A stretch of DNA of 32,684 bases from an uncultured Pseudomonadota bacterium (GCA_937862865.1 CALMFJ010000002.1:1-32684); one strand, 5' to 3'; shown: positions 18,814 to 29,700, numbered from the stretch's first letter. Made by a program: numbers and translations. The notes: a model not told the origin generated them from the letters alone.

Positions 18814-20910
18814 GTGGCGAAAAAAAAGCATCGTCTGCGCAACATCGCGTTACTGTCCGCGGTGTCCTTTGCCATCGCCGCGGCCATGTTCCTTTTTGAC
18901 CTCCTCGCGGCCTACGAGAACAAATCGTTTGACCTTTTTTCGCGGTACTTGAACCCCGAAAGGGGGTCCGACCGCGTGGTCATTATCGAGATCGACCAGC
19001 AATCCATCGATGCGCTGAGCGCCGAGAACATCACCTGGCCCTGGCCCCGGCAGGTCTACGCTCCGATTATAGAGTTCGTCTCACGTGCCGACGCCCTCTT
19101 CGTCGATATCCTGTACACCGAACCTTCATCGTACGGCGAGGAGGACGACAGGATACTCGGCGACGCTATAGCGAAGGCATCGAATGTCTATCTGCCTTTT
19201 TTCCTCTCGATGAACGAGAAGCCCCTGGGGCCCGAAGACATCGCGTACCTGAAACGTTTTGCTTTACCGGGAGAGATCCCTGCGGGTGCCGCCTACCGGT
19301 CCGCAGTGATCCCCATAAGCCGGATAAGGACGGGCGTCAAGGGAGCGGGGAATGTCGCAATCTCACCTGACACCGACGGGGTGTACCGGAGGGTCCCGGT
19401 TACCTTTCGGCTCACGGATATGACGCTGCCGAACCTCGTCTTCTCTTCGTTCATCAATACGGGCGCCTGCACGGTGGCATCCAGCAGGCTGATGCTCGGG
19501 AAGCGTCCCCTCCCGCTCACCGAAGGGAAACTGCTCCTGCGTTTCCCAAGCGGCAGAAGCCCTTACCGGGCCATACCCGTGATCGACATACTCGAGGCGT
19601 ACCGCGCGGGAAGGAAGACGGGTATTACACCCGATGAGTTCAAGGGAAAGGTGGTCTTTCTCGGGATGACCGCCCCGGGGCTTCTCGACCTCAAGGCAAC
19701 GCCCACAATGCCGGTATCCACAGGGGTCCACATCAACGCGGCGATGTTCGAGAACCTCGAATCCGGGACGTTCATGCGCCCGGTCCCTTACACGGTTGTC
19801 CTTGCTGTGATGCTGTTCATCTGTATCTTCATCACGTCCGTTGTCATCAACTACCACACGATAGGCAAGAACCTGTCTGCCTTCTTCGGGGCGTTCGTCA
19901 TTGTCATCGGCGTTGCGGCGCTGTTGTTTTCAAGTCTGTATTACCTGCCGACGACATACCTCATGATAACCGCCATCGCGAGCTTTCTCCTTGCCGCTGC
20001 TTTCAGCTATGCGGTTGAGGGAAGGGAGCGGATGTTTATAAAAAGGACGTTTTCCCAGTATATGGACAAGACCATCGTCGACTATGTCCTTCAAAACCCC
20101 GAGATCGTCAAGCCTGGCGGCAAGAAGGCCCGCGTTACCGTCCTTTTTGCGGACATAGCGGGATTCACGACCATTTCCGAACAGAATACGCCCGAAGATA
20201 CAGCCCTCATGCTTCACAGGGTCCTCAATGAGCTTACCGAGGTCGTCATCGAGGAGAAAGGGGTCGTCGACAAATATATCGGGGACTGTATCATGGCATT
20301 CTGGGGAACGCCGCTCGCGCTGCCGGAGGATGAAGTCAACGCCTGCCGCGCTGCGCTGCGCTTTATCGAGGCAATTTACGGAATAAACGCCGTTTTTGCC
20401 CTGGAGGGGATCTCCCCGATAGCGATTCGGGTGGGGCTCCACACGGGAGATGCTATCGCCGGCAACATGGGCAGTATGCGCCTCTTTGATTTTACTGTCG
20501 TCGGCGATACGGTCAATCTTGCATCGCGGCTGGAGTCGGTGAACAAAGTGTTCGGTACGCGTGTTATAACAAGCGATCCGACGCTTGCGGGAACGCACGG
20601 GCTTTTCCTCACGCGCAGCCTCGGACCTATCGAGGTCAAGGGGAAATCCGAACCTGTCGTTATTTATGAACTCATGTCCGTTCAAGCCGATGCAACCTCC
20701 TCGGATGTGAGGAAGGCCGCGCTGTACACGGAGGCCTTTGCCCTCTACAGGGATGGAAAGTTCACAGAGGCCATACATCATTTCGAAACCGTGCTTTCCG
20801 AATTTCCCGATGACGGCCCGTCGCTTTTCTACAGGAAAAGGGCTGAAAACCTCAAAGGTGCTTTTCCTTTGACAAAAAACTGGGATATTATTAAAATGAC
20901 GGAAAAATGA
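18814..20910 (+). CDS. CHASE2-domain class III adenylate cyclase
   Basis: GTG start; N-terminal TM + CHASE2-like ectodomain (DRVVIIEIDQQSIDAL...WPWPRQVYAPIIEFV...FVDILYTEPS), 3 TM helices, then FADIAGFTTISEQ..VDKYIGDCIMAFWG..HTGDAIAGNMGS..DFTVVGDTVNLASRLE cyclase motifs; K and T consistent with ATP preference. Confidence 0.93.
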   Translation: MAKKKHRLRNIALLSAVSFAIAAAMFLFDLLAAYENKSFDLFSRYLNPERGSDRVVIIEIDQQSIDALSAENITWPWPRQVYAPIIEFVSRADALFVDILYTEPSSYGEEDDRILGDAIAKASNVYLPFFLSMNEKPLGPEDIAYLKRFALPGEIPAGAAYRSAVIPISRIRTGVKGAGNVAISPDTDGVYRRVPVTFRLTDMTLPNLVFSSFINTGACTVASSRLMLGKRPLPLTEGKLLLRFPSGRSPYRAIPVIDILEAYRAGRKTGITPDEFKGKVVFLGMTAPGLLDLKATPTMPVSTGVHINAAMFENLESGTFMRPVPYTVVLAVMLFICIFITSVVINYHTIGKNLSAFFGAFVIVIGVAALLFSSLYYLPTTYLMITAIASFLLAAAFSYAVEGRERMFIKRTFSQYMDKTIVDYVLQNPEIVKPGGKKARVTVLFADIAGFTTISEQNTPEDTALMLHRVLNELTEVVIEEKGVVDKYIGDCIMAFWGTPLALPEDEVNACRAALRFIEAIYGINAVFALEGISPIAIRVGLHTGDAIAGNMGSMRLFDFTVVGDTVNLASRLESVNKVFGTRVITSDPTLAGTHGLFLTRSLGPIEVKGKSEPVVIYELMSVQADATSSDVRKAALYTEAFALYRDGKFTEAIHHFETVLSEFPDDGPSLFYRKRAENLKGAFPLTKNWDIIKMTEK

Positions 20911-21368
20911 AGAGAACCCTAACATTTTCGACTATTTTTGTATTTGTTGCGTTGAGCGTGCTTGCTGAGACCGTGACCGTGATCACCAGGGACAATGCCA
21001 TCCGTGAATACGCGAAGTTCTTCGCCCCGGTCAAGGCGAATGTCCGGTACAACGACAGGCTTGAGGTCCTGGCGACCCAGGGTGACTGGTATAAGGTCAA
21101 GTACGGCCCGTCGATCGGATACATCCATAAGAGCGCCGTGGAACAAAGGGTAGCCGCAATGTCCGCATCGTACCCGGGCAAGAGGTCTTCCGTAAGCCAG
21201 AGCGAGGCCGCGCTTGCCGGAAAGGGGTTCAATCCCCAGGTCGAAGCGTCGTATAAGAACCAGCACCCGGAGATGAAGTTTTATCTGGTGGACAGTATCG
21301 AACGTTACGTGGTCCCGGACCGTGAGGTAGCCCAGTTCATAACAAACGGGGGGTTGCGGCAGCCATGA
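20907..21368 (+). CDS. Exported SH3-domain-like protein
   Basis: Signal peptide MKRTLTFSTIFVFVALSVLAE; VTRDNAIREYAKFFAPVKANVRYNDRLEVLATQGDWYKVKYGPSIGYIHKSAV is bacterial SH3-like; ATGA overlap with the upstream gene. Confidence 0.8.
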   Translation: MKRTLTFSTIFVFVALSVLAETVTVITRDNAIREYAKFFAPVKANVRYNDRLEVLATQGDWYKVKYGPSIGYIHKSAVEQRVAAMSASYPGKRSSVSQSEAALAGKGFNPQVEASYKNQHPEMKFYLVDSIERYVVPDREVAQFITNGGLRQP

Positions 21369-22240
21369 TGAGGAAATTGAGCCTGTTCCCCGCCGTGTTT
21401 GTCATGCTCGCCCTGTTCGCTTCGTGCGATACGACCGGCTTCGGGAACATCTCGCAGCATATCGGGACGGCTATGACCGCCGTCGACGCCACCTCAAGCG
21501 CCGCCCGCCCGATCTCGGAAGAAGAGGAATACTATGTCGGGCGTGCCGTAGCGGCCAAAATACTCGGCACTTACAAGCTGTCGACCGACGCGCACCTGAC
21601 CCGGTATGTCAACCTGATCGGCAGAACGGTCGCGCTCGGCTCGGACAAACCGTACACGTATGGCGGCTATCATTTCGCAGTCCTCGATACGCCGGAGATA
21701 AACGCCTTCGCCGCACCCGGCGGGACCATCTTCATCACCGCGGGCATGGTCCGGACAACAGCGAACGAGGATGAGCTCGCTGCGGTCCTTGCCCACGAGG
21801 TCGCTCATATCGGCAAGCGCGACGGCATCGCTGCGATCAAGAGCGCACGGTGGACACAGGCCCTGACGCTCATCGGGACGACTGCCGCCAAGAATTACAC
21901 GTCATCGGAGATATCCCAGCTGGTAAGTATTTTTGAAGGAAGCATCGACGATGTCTTCAAGACTCTCGTCGTGAACGGGTACGGCCGGTCCCAGGAATAC
22001 GCCGCCGATGAAACGGCAGTTATGACACTCGCCAGATGCGGGTATGATCCGAAGGCCCTGGTCTCCTTTCTCAAACGCCTCGAGCAGCGGGGGAAATCGT
22101 CCGGCGGGGGGATCATGCAGACACACCCCGGCACCGCAGACAGGATAGACAACATCTCCGGGAAGATTCCGGCGACGGGCGCCATCCATCCCAGGGCGAT
22201 CGAGGCCCGCACCGCGCGGTACAACCAGAGCGTGCGATAA
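21365..22240 (+). CDS. M48 family metalloprotease (lipoprotein)
   Basis: Lipobox LFASC; HEVAHIGKRDG (HExxH), EYAADETAVMTLARCGYDP third ligand region; ATGA overlap with the upstream gene. Confidence 0.92.
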   Translation: MMRKLSLFPAVFVMLALFASCDTTGFGNISQHIGTAMTAVDATSSAARPISEEEEYYVGRAVAAKILGTYKLSTDAHLTRYVNLIGRTVALGSDKPYTYGGYHFAVLDTPEINAFAAPGGTIFITAGMVRTTANEDELAAVLAHEVAHIGKRDGIAAIKSARWTQALTLIGTTAAKNYTSSEISQLVSIFEGSIDDVFKTLVVNGYGRSQEYAADETAVMTLARCGYDPKALVSFLKRLEQRGKSSGGGIMQTHPGTADRIDNISGKIPATGAIHPRAIEARTARYNQSVR

Positions 22241-22280
22241 TCTTACAGCTTTCTTCTTAAATCGCTTCGAGGAGTTCCGG

Positions 22281-23696
22281 GTGCAAAAACTCTTTTTTTT
22301 CATTCTCTTCCTGATGGTCCCGGCCGCACTTTTCGGGGCCGCCGCCCAGTGCCCGCGCTACAGCGTCATGATGGAAGGCACGACGGTATTCATGGGCGTC
22401 TCCTACACGGAACGGGTATCAGCCCACAAGGTGGGGGCTGGCGCAGGCTACAACGGCCGCTGGAAGGTCGATCTTTTCGAGCAGGTGATAACATATCCCC
22501 GGCCGGTCGGAATGCCCATCTCCACCGATGATATCCACGATCTCGGCAACGGGGTCACGATGCGTTCCGTTTGCGTCTGCACGGGCAACAACATCATTAC
22601 CTGCCGCAGCACATCAAACACGATGTTCCTCGAGGTCATCAACAACCAGGTGCGCATGGAACGCACCGTACCGTGGCACGGAAAGGTGACGGGAAACACA
22701 ATGTCCTGGAAGTTTGACCTTGCGAGCCCGACCGAACCTGTTGTAACGGGGACTATCGCCGAGGCGCCGAAGGAACCCGTTGAGCTCACTATAATCGAGC
22801 CGAAAGACAGGGCCCGCTACGTCTATGGGATCTTGAACCCGACACTGGAATTGAAACTTGAAGCAAAGACCAAACCGGAGCATTATGCCGATTCGGTGGA
22901 ATGGACCATCCCTGCAATGAACGGGGTCACGCGCACCATTCTTCAAGGGGCCCCGACAGGCCGGAAGCTTGATGTCATCTATAAGAATTTGCCGAAAGAC
23001 AACGATCAGTTCGGAAAGAAAAAGGTGACTGCCACGCTCAAGGTGGGGTCATGTACCGCCACTGAAACCCGCGAGGTCAGGTTTTTCTTCCCGAGAGATG
23101 CGAAGAACAACCCCGGTGGTGAATACTACAACTGGTTTTATTACTGGAAGCAGACGCCTGCTGCAAAACCCTTTGGACAAACGATCAATATCGAGTTCGG
23201 AGGAACGCAGTTCGATGTATGCAAGGACTTTCACGTCCCGGCGATGTTCAAACCGGCCTATATGTACAAGACGATCCACATCTGCGACCTCACCGCGAAG
23301 CTCGATAACGCCTTTGCAATGACCTTTCCATCGGTAAAACGCAGCGTGCCAAAGACGGTAACGGTAAAAGAGTACAGAACGACACGCCATATCGATACAT
23401 TCGCGGTCATAGTCCGCCACGAATATATCCATTTCAGCGCCTATCACAACTGGCGCCAGGGAAAGACCATGGCGCAGATGGAGGCGCAGGACAAAGACCT
23501 CGACGGCATTCCCGACCATCTCGAACCCGGCATGGAGTTCGACCCGGACAAATTCCAGACATACTGGGGCTGGGACCCGCAATGGAAGAAGATCGGGGGA
23601 GATGAAGAATTCCTCGCATACGAGGCGATGTACGATTATAAAGACGGCACGTACGACGCCTACGACTGGGCAAAACCGGGGAAAAACTGGCCTTAA
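22281..23696 (+). CDS. Secreted protein with HExxH metallopeptidase-like motif, family not recognised
   Basis: GTG start after GAGGAGTT; signal peptide ending FGAAA; IVRHEYIHFSAYHNW, DKDLDGIPD Ca-binding-like loop, GGDEEFLAYEAMYD C-terminal Glu motif. Confidence 0.7.
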   Translation: MQKLFFFILFLMVPAALFGAAAQCPRYSVMMEGTTVFMGVSYTERVSAHKVGAGAGYNGRWKVDLFEQVITYPRPVGMPISTDDIHDLGNGVTMRSVCVCTGNNIITCRSTSNTMFLEVINNQVRMERTVPWHGKVTGNTMSWKFDLASPTEPVVTGTIAEAPKEPVELTIIEPKDRARYVYGILNPTLELKLEAKTKPEHYADSVEWTIPAMNGVTRTILQGAPTGRKLDVIYKNLPKDNDQFGKKKVTATLKVGSCTATETREVRFFFPRDAKNNPGGEYYNWFYYWKQTPAAKPFGQTINIEFGGTQFDVCKDFHVPAMFKPAYMYKTIHICDLTAKLDNAFAMTFPSVKRSVPKTVTVKEYRTTRHIDTFAVIVRHEYIHFSAYHNWRQGKTMAQMEAQDKDLDGIPDHLEPGMEFDPDKFQTYWGWDPQWKKIGGDEEFLAYEAMYDYKDGTYDAYDWAKPGKNWP

Positions 23697-25740: not shown

Positions 25741-26913
25741 TCATTGAGCGGCGTCCCGGGTTTTCCCCCTGCCCCCCATAAAACCGTATCCCGTGCCGAT
25801 CGCATCACACGCTATGTGATAGCTGCGCATGAGAAAGACCATCGCCGGTATTGCAATCACCGCAGGAGCCACGACAATAGCGACAAACAAACGGTAAATG
25901 AACCCGTACATTTCGCCTGCAACGGTGAAGACATCCAGGCTTCCGAGGGCCGCCGTGTCACTCGCAAGATACGCTTCGACCATGTTCGCCATGGCGGAGC
26001 CATCCGTGCACAGGCTAAAAGCTGATGTCAGGACGCTGAGGATGTTGACGGCAACGACCGGGGTCAGGGCAATGGCGAAGGCCCTGACGATATTCTCGAA
26101 AAACACTTCTCTGCGGGCATCGAAGGCCATATTGACAACCGAAAAAGGGAACGTGACGCAAAATACGGATGCCCGCACGGCGGCGCTTATGATAACGCCC
26201 GTAAAGGTGAACAGGAGCAGCGTATAAAAGATAAAACCGGAGATAGCCCCGATGTTGTCGGTGGTCAGATCCTTTACGATCTGCAGGATGCTGATCATGT
26301 TCCGGGCGTCTATATTGACGCCGATCCCGCAGGTGATCACGGCCATATACTCCGATACCGTATAGCTGACAGCCATCAAGAACCCGCCAAGGGCGGTATT
26401 GAAAAAGGCAAGACAGGCAAGCGGCGGTATCACCGGCAGAAGAAAGATCAATTGGGCGAGGCGCACCCTGATCGCATCAGTCCATTTTATGCTCTGTCCG
26501 GCAAGCGGGGACGCCTCTTTAACGGCTATCAACTGCCCGGACAGCTCAAGCGACCCGGAACTGCTCTTGAGCTCTTCTTTTATTGTTGCCAGGTTTTCAA
26601 ATACGGCGTCATTCCCCATCTGCTCGAAACCGGCCGATATCACGATCCTGGGAAACGCCCCGATGAAGGTTCCCGGTTTGCCGTCAACCCCTGCGAGGTA
26701 GGGGACCGGTGTGCATAATGACGCGATGATCATGAACTTGCTCCCCTGGTCCTTCAGGTAGGGGACGATATTCTCCCATCCCCTCTTATAGGCTGTGAAG
26801 ATAACGCGGGAAGAGCCCATTACAAACGCAATCGCGGTGACGATGGCAGCTACCTGCTGCTCCACCTGGGAAACGAGGCCTGCAGTTTGCACGAGAAGAT
26901 CTGTCGGGTCCAT
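25741..26913 (-). CDS. Multi-pass membrane protein, weakly TrbL/VirB6-like
   Basis: About 6 hydrophobic segments with a central soluble loop; no clear family motif; ATG with GAGGTG SD. Confidence 0.5.
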   Translation of the reverse strand: MDPTDLLVQTAGLVSQVEQQVAAIVTAIAFVMGSSRVIFTAYKRGWENIVPYLKDQGSKFMIIASLCTPVPYLAGVDGKPGTFIGAFPRIVISAGFEQMGNDAVFENLATIKEELKSSSGSLELSGQLIAVKEASPLAGQSIKWTDAIRVRLAQLIFLLPVIPPLACLAFFNTALGGFLMAVSYTVSEYMAVITCGIGVNIDARNMISILQIVKDLTTDNIGAISGFIFYTLLLFTFTGVIISAAVRASVFCVTFPFSVVNMAFDARREVFFENIVRAFAIALTPVVAVNILSVLTSAFSLCTDGSAMANMVEAYLASDTAALGSLDVFTVAGEMYGFIYRLFVAIVVAPAVIAIPAMVFLMRSYHIACDAIGTGYGFMGGRGKTRDAAQ

Positions 26914-26969
26914 AGCACCTCATTACGATACGGGGACAGCCGTTCGTAAGATGATATAGCATGATAACG

Positions 26970-26999
26970 AAAAAAAGGCCGGGCGAATTACCCCGGCCT
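26970..26999 (-). terminator. Rho-independent terminator
   Basis: Minus strand AGGCCGGGGTAATTCGCCCGGCCTTTTTTT: 8-bp GC-rich stem followed by a U-tract, 3' of the 27028-29700 gene. Confidence 0.88.
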
Positions 27000-27027
27000 C
27001 GCGGTTTTTCTGTGATCGAACGAAGGA

Positions 27028-29700
27028 TCATCTCCGCAGCGTAAACCCGCGCGGCGGATTGCCGGGATGGGTGTCGCCTCCCTGCCATTTCCTTTTGATC
27101 ACGATCGTCTTGCCGTCGTCATTCCACTGCACGTGGAACGGGTAGAGCGTTCCCTGTATCTCGTTATTGTTCGTACCGATCGCGAAGGTGGCCTTCGCGG
27201 TGATCGTACCGATGGCCTGAGACAGGCGCATATCCTGCATATACTGGTTTATGACCGTGGCATTCCCGAACGTTAAAATGACGGACGCCGTATTCCCCGA
27301 TATTGATCCCGAAACGGGAATGCTGCCGCCGGGTGTCTGCATGGAGCCGCTTACGTTCGACCCGGATTGGTTCAAGGTCATCTTGCCGTTGAACCGTCCC
27401 TTGGAATCGACCGCGTTCCATGTCCCGTTCAGGGTAACGGGGGTAACGGGGACATTGCGGGATGTGTACGCCCTGCCGCTTGGGGTCGGCACCGGGGGCT
27501 GGGGTTTCGTTGTCTGGGCCGTCGTCGTGGCAGGCGTCTGTGTATTGCTCCCGCCCGACAGCGCTTCCATCAGTTCGCGAAAAGGATCGGGCTGCTCCCC
27601 TTTTTTATAAACGGTCACATTATGCGACGCCTGCGCCAGCTTGACCGGTTTCGGCTGGTATTTCATCCACAACTCCGCGGTGACATAGAAGGTCCCCGGA
27701 GCGGTTGCCGGCAGATTGACCGTATCCCGGGAGGCATACCGTCTCCCGTTGACCACCCAGCTGCAATAAAGGGCTGAAGAGGGGACGTTCGTGTCGCCGA
27801 CGCTCGCTGAAAGCTGAATGTTCTGCCCTACCTCGGCTGAGGAAGGGCCGCTTACCGAGACGGACCCTTTTGCCGGGTCGGGCCCGGCGGCAACGAACGC
27901 ATGGCGGGCTTCCCCTGCCCTGTGCCATTTTCCGGCCATTGCCTGCCATACCACCACCTGCACGACGTTCCGGCCTGCGCGTGCCACCTTGAGTGACTGG
28001 GTATCACCATTTCCGCCGAACCTCACACCGTCGACGGACCACACATAACTGTACGCGGGTTCGTTGTCGCTTCTGCTGAGCTGTGTTATCCGCGTTTTCA
28101 GGGATATTTCGTCACCCACCTTTGACTCTCCCGGCCCGTCCACCTGGACCGAGATCCTGCGGTCCCCGGCAACAACCCGATGCGTATCTTCGCCGACAAG
28201 GATCGACTGGCGCGTGTCAGGCCGCACCACATAAACCACCAGGCTCACATTATACGTTCCCGCCGTGACCAGCGTCCTTTTGAACTTTGTGCCAGAACCG
28301 AGGACCGTGTTGTTTCCCGTCAGCCGCCATGCATATTTGAGGGACGGCTTTATGGATTCGGCCGCTTCGATCTCCGATCCGAGCTCGATCGCATCACCCG
28401 TGAATGCCTGCTCAGGCCCCGTTATTGTCACCTTTACCCTCGGCTTGAGATTGAAGTCCACGGCCACGGGGACCGAAGCCGACTTTTCGTCCTTCGGCTT
28501 GACCGCGACCTTTTTCGATTCCACGCCGAAACCCGACGCCTCGGCGGTCATCGTATATGCCCCGGGAGGGACCTCGTCGAACCGTGCCTCACCGGAATCA
28601 CCCGTCGTCTCCGGCGACCGTGACGACATCCGCACCGTGGCGTTCGCGACGGGGATCGATCCCGACTTGACCCGCGCAGCAACGATGCTCAGAATGGGCT
28701 CCAGGGTGACCGGGTAGCTGTCCTCCCGTGACGGGACCAGTTCAACGGTGTCCGTGTAGGCCAGGTAGCCGTCGGCCGTGACACGGACCGCATATTTTGC
28801 CGGTTTGACACCTTTCGCCGTTACCGTACCGTCCGCCCCCGTTGTGCCGCTCAGCCTCATCTCCGCTGTGAGCGTCACGTGCGCACCGCTGACCGGCTTT
28901 CCCGAACTGTCCCTGACCTCGATCTTGATCACCCTGAGGTTCGTCCTGGTCTTTTCGACCAGTTCCCGGTTCGCCTCATCCAGGTCTTTTTTGGTTATCC
29001 CTTCATCCGACGAAAAACTGTTGTAGCCCTGATGCTTATTCATCAGTTTTCCCCAGTCCTCCGTCTTTATACCGTTCCATGCACTGTTATCGAAGCTCTT
29101 GAAATTTCCCCCGGAACCCCCGTGCGCCCACAGGTCAAAAGAATAGGGCACACCATCGATTACGGCAACCGGAGCGACATGGTTTATGTTGACGTCAAAG
29201 ATGTATCCCCTGTTCAGGGCCTGCCAGCCGTCTTTGTACCCGACAACGGAATGTATCTGGCCGGGGTCGAATCCCGAACCTTTGAGGGTTTCGGTCACGG
29301 CATCGTTAAGGTACCCGCATGTCGCCGCCTCACTGTTGCCATACCTGAGGGAAGCGTCAATACGACCGATCAGGGACGTATTGGGAGTGATCCCCCTGCG
29401 GTCCAACTCTTTCGCAACCTGGGAGGCAATATAGCGCGCCTTTTCAAGTTCACCGGCCGGCGCTGTCGCCTTCAACTGTTCGCCGAATTTCTTCCAGTCC
29501 GCGGGCGTCGGCACCCGGTCCTTCAGGCCCTGCGAATCTACCGGCTGATATCCATGATCTTTTCTGACATCGGTCGGCAGGGGGCGCTCCCCGCGAGAGT
29601 GCCCCGATGCGAAAATGAAGAGCATCGCCGTGATCAATGCCAGCATAACATAATTCACGAGTCTTCCCGCGCTGTTCCCGCCGTGGTGCCGTTCCTTCAT
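27028..29700 (-). CDS. Large membrane-anchored/secreted protein: transglutaminase-like N-terminal region plus carboxypeptidase-regulatory-like and PKD/Ig-like repeats
   Basis: N-terminal TM; ATCGYLNDAVTETLKGSGF...NINHVAPVAVIDGVPYSFDLW (C128-H174-D189); VSGAHVTLTAEMRLSGTTGADGTVTAKGVKPAKYAVRVTADGY and a second similar repeat; several GP-x-VGDEI..L.....W.VDG modules; Pro/Thr-rich linker. Confidence 0.75.
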   Translation of the reverse strand: MKERHHGGNSAGRLVNYVMLALITAMLFIFASGHSRGERPLPTDVRKDHGYQPVDSQGLKDRVPTPADWKKFGEQLKATAPAGELEKARYIASQVAKELDRRGITPNTSLIGRIDASLRYGNSEAATCGYLNDAVTETLKGSGFDPGQIHSVVGYKDGWQALNRGYIFDVNINHVAPVAVIDGVPYSFDLWAHGGSGGNFKSFDNSAWNGIKTEDWGKLMNKHQGYNSFSSDEGITKKDLDEANRELVEKTRTNLRVIKIEVRDSSGKPVSGAHVTLTAEMRLSGTTGADGTVTAKGVKPAKYAVRVTADGYLAYTDTVELVPSREDSYPVTLEPILSIVAARVKSGSIPVANATVRMSSRSPETTGDSGEARFDEVPPGAYTMTAEASGFGVESKKVAVKPKDEKSASVPVAVDFNLKPRVKVTITGPEQAFTGDAIELGSEIEAAESIKPSLKYAWRLTGNNTVLGSGTKFKRTLVTAGTYNVSLVVYVVRPDTRQSILVGEDTHRVVAGDRRISVQVDGPGESKVGDEISLKTRITQLSRSDNEPAYSYVWSVDGVRFGGNGDTQSLKVARAGRNVVQVVVWQAMAGKWHRAGEARHAFVAAGPDPAKGSVSVSGPSSAEVGQNIQLSASVGDTNVPSSALYCSWVVNGRRYASRDTVNLPATAPGTFYVTAELWMKYQPKPVKLAQASHNVTVYKKGEQPDPFRELMEALSGGSNTQTPATTTAQTTKPQPPVPTPSGRAYTSRNVPVTPVTLNGTWNAVDSKGRFNGKMTLNQSGSNVSGSMQTPGGSIPVSGSISGNTASVILTFGNATVINQYMQDMRLSQAIGTITAKATFAIGTNNNEIQGTLYPFHVQWNDDGKTIVIKRKWQGGDTHPGNPPRGFTLRR

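Follow-up and report, generated by a model that had tools for sequence, protein, structure and literature searches.

A CHASE2 adenylyl cyclase, a secreted SH3 protein and an M48 lipoprotease form a phylum-spanning gene trio that may couple envelope proteolysis to cAMP

Three adjacent genes of an uncultured bacterium, encoding a CHASE2 cyclase, a secreted SH3 protein and an M48 lipoprotease, form a genuinely linked unit, and we put at roughly 0.5 the probability that they constitute a conserved envelope-to-cAMP signalling module in which the SH3-M48 pair provides the input and the fourth gene behind them is a passenger. The window, by which we mean the whole 32,684-nucleotide stretch of DNA analysed, is one contig (C2) of a 2.64 Mb draft genome. 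Judging from its relatives, which are Syntrophorhabdales and related Deltaproteobacteria MAGs, the host appears to belong to Desulfobacterota, at the family level to Syntrophorhabdaceae.

Results

Layout of the locus and the cyclase gene

Four open reading frames lie on the + strand at 18814-20910, 20907-21368, 21365-22240 and 22281-23696. The ATGA overlaps at 20907-20910 and 21365-21368 and the 40-bp gap before gene 4 are present in the sequence exactly as an earlier note on this DNA had claimed, and the identities that it gave to the first three genes (CHASE2 plus class III cyclase, SH3 and M48) were borne out by Pfam. The overlap between the cyclase and SH3 genes was seen again in other genera and in Nitrospirota. 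A scan for terminator-like sites on the + strand returned positions 19908, 20808 and 22454, all within coding sequence, and no such site between the four genes. Further along the window, at 25741-29700 on the - strand, a membrane protein whose family was not recognised is encoded together with an 890-aa secreted protein carrying carboxypeptidase-regulatory-like and PKD-type repeats; homologues of one or both of these genes are found near the trio locus in some members of the genus.

Gene 1 (18814-20910, +) starts with GTG and encodes a 698-aa protein in which the CHASE2 domain (residues 22-339, 18877-19830; Pfam E 1.4e-41, 143.3 bits against a cut-off of 26.3) precedes the cyclase catalytic domain (residues 438-614, 20125-20655; Guanylate_cyc E 2.1e-24, 86.5 bits against a cut-off of 21.9), both scoring above their cut-offs. 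A short TPR-like tail, matched weakly by the Pfam TPR model, closes the protein. CHASE2 topology places the domain on the periplasmic side. The best PDB relatives of the catalytic domain are adenylyl cyclases, with CyaB first, and a metal-binding aspartate, DK[YF]xGD and a late TxxGDxVNxAxR motif are kept in cyclase relatives, with the window cyclase and its relatives carrying FADIAG, DKYIGD and TVVGDTVNLASR. The metal-binding aspartate, the substrate-specifying lysine and the late asparagine and arginine that characterise class III adenylyl cyclases are thus all present, and the protein is predicted to be a membrane-bound sensor producing cAMP. By pattern match, the first metal-binding aspartate motif occurs in 66/66 trio cyclases. 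A stricter pattern found the threonine before xxGD, which is typical of class IIIb adenylyl cyclases, in 60/66, and the DK[YF]xGD lysine is visible in all of the sequences printed, namely those that missed this stricter pattern. The same genome encodes two further CHASE2 cyclases, neither with SH3-M48 genes beside it, and gave eleven cNMP-binding matches, several of them CRP-like genes of CRP size.

The SH3 protein and the M48 lipoprotease

Gene 2 (20907-21368, +) encodes a secreted protein of 153 aa, comprising a signal peptide, an SH3b domain and a C-terminal helical signature domain. The bacterial SH3 domain (residues 32-78, 21000-21140) scored over the Pfam cut-off (SH3_3, E 1.6e-08) and matched SH3b folds by structure, and in a structure model the SH3b domain is predicted with confidence and is connected by a flexible linker to a C-terminal domain of four helices. 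From the alignment and this model, the C-terminal domain (21198-21350) carries the signature ALAGKGF-x3-VE-x2-Y, which begins mostly with ALAGKGF or TLAGKGF and takes the form SAGARGL in Nitrospira-like members. A structure search returned SH3 folds and no distinct fold match for the helical domain; in Pfam, gene 2 gave only SH3-type and GW matches, with neither a FecR nor a LysM domain. Assuming the usual function of its fold, the SH3b domain probably binds peptidoglycan.

Gene 3 (21365-22240, +) encodes a 291-aa M48 metalloprotease lipoprotein, assigned by Pfam (Peptidase_M48, E 7.3e-32, 111.1 bits against a cut-off of 20.3), NCBIfam and its HEVAH motif at residues 144-148. The HExxH motif is kept in 73/73 trio M48 proteins, and the lipobox reads FASC in the window and LASC in the consensus of relatives. 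BepA, a beta-barrel-assembly protease, is the best NCBIfam match and is among the best PDB matches. We nevertheless rejected gene 3 as BepA or LoiP, the scores being 103.3 of 570 and 59.8 of 365 bits relative to the curated NCBIfam cut-offs. It shares the M48 fold with both but differs in having no large TPR domain; it represents a distinct, SH3-linked subfamily. An apparent SH3-M48 fusion at one locus (L282) was also discarded, since its two domains lie in different reading frames. The signal peptide of gene 2, the lipobox of gene 3 and the topology of CHASE2 together predict that SH3, M48 and CHASE2 domain share the periplasmic side, in agreement with the earlier note.

Cyclase, SH3 and M48 genes are linked across phyla

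Homologues of the SH3 protein, which were found by sequence alone, have an M48 gene adjacent on the same strand at a gap of at most 237 bp in 66/66 loci with a full-length homologue, a count in which rare free-standing SH3 relatives may be missed because the profile was built from trio members and 19 of 38 matching Nitrospirota genomes, chosen from the stronger matches, were taken for neighbourhood examination. A CHASE2 cyclase is near the SH3 homologue in 60/66 loci, which span six phyla and the unplaced bacterium UASB270. None of 10 control matches to the SH3 half only had an M48 or cyclase gene nearby. The three genes are therefore a genuine linked unit, far beyond chance.

Searches of 247 Desulfobacterota genomes gave the same picture from both partners of the pair. 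The SH3 profile (A1) produced 24 matches, and an M48 profile produced 25 strong matches, 24 of them directly beside the SH3 matches; the M48 E-values then jump from 1e-65 for these top matches to 3e-49 below them. Of the 24 SH3 matches, 19 have a CHASE2 cyclase next to them. At L148 the contig edge falls just beyond a cyclase-like TPR tail, and at L146, L151, L160 and L167 no CHASE2 cyclase was found in the stretch examined. Five loci have SH3-M48 but no nearby cyclase, indicating that the pair does not depend on the cyclase in all lineages. In two related Desulfobacterota, where the cyclase is not nearby, an apolipoprotein N-acyltransferase gene directly precedes SH3-M48 (L160:7889-9403 and L167:5139-6656).

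A wider SH3 profile (A7) extended the family to Nitrospirota (38/148 genomes with a match), Pseudomonadota, Acidobacteriota, Spirochaetota and Campylobacterota; outside Desulfobacterota, phylum names follow the titles of the records that supplied the central loci. The trio is kept in two gene orders: among 64 complete trios, the cyclase comes first in 50 and last in 14, and explaining this distribution on the tree takes two changes of order, one of them dependent on a long branch. Besides the trio, no flanking family occurs in more than 9 of 59 loci. At one spirochaetal locus (L317, genome G873), the trio M48 and cyclase genes are each split over two reading frames, which suggests decay or an assembly error.

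Evolutionary distances of the SH3 and M48 proteins correlate with those of the CHASE2 domain at r 0.94 and 0.92 and with those of the catalytic domain at 0.86 and 0.82. We set this correlation aside as proof of contact, as the domains differ as clocks; the tighter match to CHASE2 agrees with an input role for the pair but may reflect CHASE2 being a better clock than the catalytic domain.

A candidate promoter within the cyclase gene

A motif scan identified a candidate sigma-70-type promoter, TTGACA-17-TAAAAT, within the 3' end of the cyclase gene (20869-20897, +), scoring 11/12 and lying immediately ahead of the start codon of SH3 (20907). The motif is conserved in the same register in 27/28 members of the family and related Nitrospirota and is absent from more distant trios, making it clade-specific. 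In the cyclase gene of the GC-rich genus members, TTG accounts for only ~1-6% of leucine codons and ACA for ~7-26% of threonine codons, so protein coding alone does not explain the motif. Because the encoded peptide is conserved too and the sequences compared are relatives of one another, this evidence for a promoter is strong without being conclusive. Retention of the motif in 27/28 members despite the rare codons suggests that SH3-M48 can probably be transcribed independently of the cyclase. If the promoter is used, it would yield an almost leaderless SH3-M48(-gene 4) transcript separate from that of the cyclase.

Gene 4 is a genus-level addition

Gene 4 (22281-23696, +) encodes a secreted HExxH protein of 471 aa with an N-terminal hydrophobic segment, a beta-rich N-terminal domain, an Ig-like beta-sandwich and a zincin-like domain. 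Neither Pfam nor NCBIfam gave a family match, even with the threshold relaxed to E 1. The HEYIH motif (23418-23432, +) falls in a helix predicted to span residues 370-391 and is followed by DxDxDGIPD and GDEE motifs; in the alignment, the invariant positions include HExxH, D404/D406/D408, D412 and D441/E442. The AlphaFold model, which is of moderate confidence (mean pLDDT 80.6, pTM 0.47), places HEYIH on a long helix. Foldseek found no PDB match to the model at E < 0.001, and the gene 4 profile gave weak PDB matches (best E 0.17) that we read as its DxDxDG motif. A secreted zinc protease is the likely identity of the gene 4 product. The Ig-like and zincin-like C-terminal portion belongs to a broad family that has no Pfam model and occurs in many phyla.

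We searched for gene 4 and the SH3 gene in the same 60 relatives and compared their neighbourhoods. Cyclase, SH3 and M48 genes occur in order in 11/12 genomes of the genus, and gene 4 adjoins the trio in 10/12 (the window's genome included in both counts), of which one (G002) has two copies and three (G001, G007 and G010) show the start of gene 4 only, at a contig end. In the window's nearest relative in the tree (G004), the trio is followed directly by a UbiE gene, without gene 4. G009 has lost the block: its SDR and UbiE flanking genes enclose no more than a 46-residue gene 4 remnant. In other genera of the family, eight genomes have the trio and no gene 4 beside it. In G018 the trio is on a contig (C90) that ends shortly after M48, and a two-domain gene 4 homologue lies on another contig among unrelated neighbours.

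A profile search produced 78 gene 4 loci from many phyla, which we called testable if their flanking sequence extended 3 kb or more on one side. A trio gene is nearby in only four, all of them this genus's module; besides these, 0 of 68 testable loci, which include some same-genus paralogues with a different N-terminal half, lie beside a trio gene, and six are too short to tell. The neighbourhood comparison that the earlier note had proposed thus split its suggestion of a four-gene system: SH3 homologues did keep company with M48 and CHASE2 cyclase genes, whereas HExxH homologues occurred almost only without the trio, and the four-gene combination fell away with gene 4 confined to the trio inside one genus and missing from G004. 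Gene 4 is a recent genus-level addition, which we read as a lineage-specific passenger that is able to share the transcript.

Gene 4 has a varied history within the genus. It is duplicated at L028:3971-7141 (G002), and its zincin-like domain falls into two sequence subtypes, one in the window, G008 and the second G002 copy and the other in the rest, a pattern that looks like domain replacement or gene conversion. The window's own genome also encodes, at L036 (G000:C24:8977-9927), a paralogue in which the C-terminal domain of gene 4 is joined to an unrelated N-terminal half, and close relatives of this domain are present in Thauera, Azoarcus and Thermodesulfovibrio as well.

Discussion

We favour SH3-M48 as the input to the cyclase because the pair is the invariant core of the locus, also exists where no cyclase is close by and carries a promoter motif of its own. 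The SH3 protein would act as an adaptor, its SH3b domain probably sitting on peptidoglycan and its helical C-terminal signature probably docking on a partner, and the M48 lipoprotease would be the enzyme that it serves. Both would face the periplasm, adjacent to the CHASE2 domain. Cyclase activity could then be set when the pair engages envelope substrates, or when it processes CHASE2 or a ligand, and the resulting cAMP may act through CRP-type regulators. Physical contact, signal direction, substrate and cAMP response are what we infer in this model. Its fullest form is an unnamed, phylum-spanning module in which a periplasmic SH3 adaptor and an M48 lipoprotease feed directly into a CHASE2 cyclase, turning envelope proteolysis into cAMP, and whose adaptor and protease can, in a single clade, be made apart from the sensor thanks to a promoter within the cyclase gene; we advance this combined statement tentatively, as something just short of an even bet.

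The earlier note had run the signal the other way, with CHASE2 sensing an envelope signal, cAMP driving the expression or activity of the exported proteases, and all four genes forming one system. The shared strand, the overlaps, the absence of a + strand terminator-like site between the genes and the linkage of the first three fit such a reading, but gene 4 is unlinked to the trio outside the genus and missing from the sister species G004, and SH3-M48 has its own conserved promoter motif, so that we regard it as improbable. That the cyclase drives exported proteolysis is not supported; the five cyclase-less SH3-M48 loci and the promoter motif fit better with a pair that stands upstream of the cyclase or beside it. 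The best reading is roughly the reverse, with the state of SH3-M48 read by CHASE2 and reported as cAMP.

Alternatively, the pair could carry no signal and serve instead in maturation or quality control of the CHASE2 cyclase, or of its envelope assembly. Trio linkage and a shared compartment fit this idea equally well, and BepA and LoiP are the closest named M48 relatives of gene 3. Yet SH3-M48 is kept at the five loci without a nearby cyclase, and the two further CHASE2 cyclases in the genome have no such pair beside them, which argues against a general need for it among CHASE2 cyclases; we find a maturation role rather doubtful. That the genes are unrelated envelope genes, neighbours by chance or through shared expression only, is scarcely credible: bacteria do have a general habit of clustering envelope genes, and this is all that speaks for it, against linkage in 66/66 and 60/66 loci over six phyla in two gene orders, controls at 0/10 and conserved overlapping junctions. 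A chance neighbourhood is contradicted for genes 1-3 and possible for gene 4.

The pair matters beyond this locus. The inputs of CHASE2 domains are, in general, not known (PMC5192318), and a protease and an adaptor co-inherited with the cyclase across six phyla are concrete candidate partners that make the input of CHASE2 cyclases directly testable. The M48 subfamily and the secreted SH3 family, each of them distinct, also gain a likely role. In the literature searched, whose coverage leaves out most subscription journals, no paper names the trio or describes the SH3-M48 pairing.

Several described systems resemble the trio in part. In Campylobacterota, a cluster of genes for a CHASE2 adenylate cyclase, a cAMP phosphodiesterase, a FecR-domain outer-membrane protein and a TPR protein was proposed, from gene clustering, to form one pathway (PMC9239204). 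Like the trio, it groups a CHASE2 cyclase with a predicted exported partner, but it has the FecR protein and phosphodiesterase where the window module has the SH3 signature protein and M48 (PMC9239204); the window module gave no match to a FecR, LysM or phosphodiesterase domain. The Burkholderia BiofilmReg operon (response regulator, LysM-FecR protein, CHASE2 histidine kinase and DUF4136) likewise pairs a CHASE2 sensor with a secreted protein predicted to bind peptidoglycan, but with a histidine kinase output, LysM-FecR in place of SH3 and no M48 protease (PMC5192318). In Sinorhizobium meliloti, cAMP output by the CHASE2 cyclases CyaD1, CyaD2 and CyaK depends on the outer-membrane protein NsrA and on Clr, a CRP-type regulator (PMC13001267). 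As in our model, an envelope protein and a CRP-type regulator are tied to cAMP there, but NsrA is a beta-barrel and the available part of that paper describes no SH3-M48 pair (PMC13001267). Magnetotactic bacteria carry the gene for secreted MtxA followed by a CHASE2 adenylate cyclase gene, again a secreted protein gene next to a CHASE2 cyclase gene; MtxA has TPR and Ig-like features, and no protease is described in the available part of the source (PMC4439547). CHASE2 sensors with FecR, LysM-FecR, MtxA and NsrA partners are thus already known, and by the literature searched the SH3-M48 pairing appears to be the new part.
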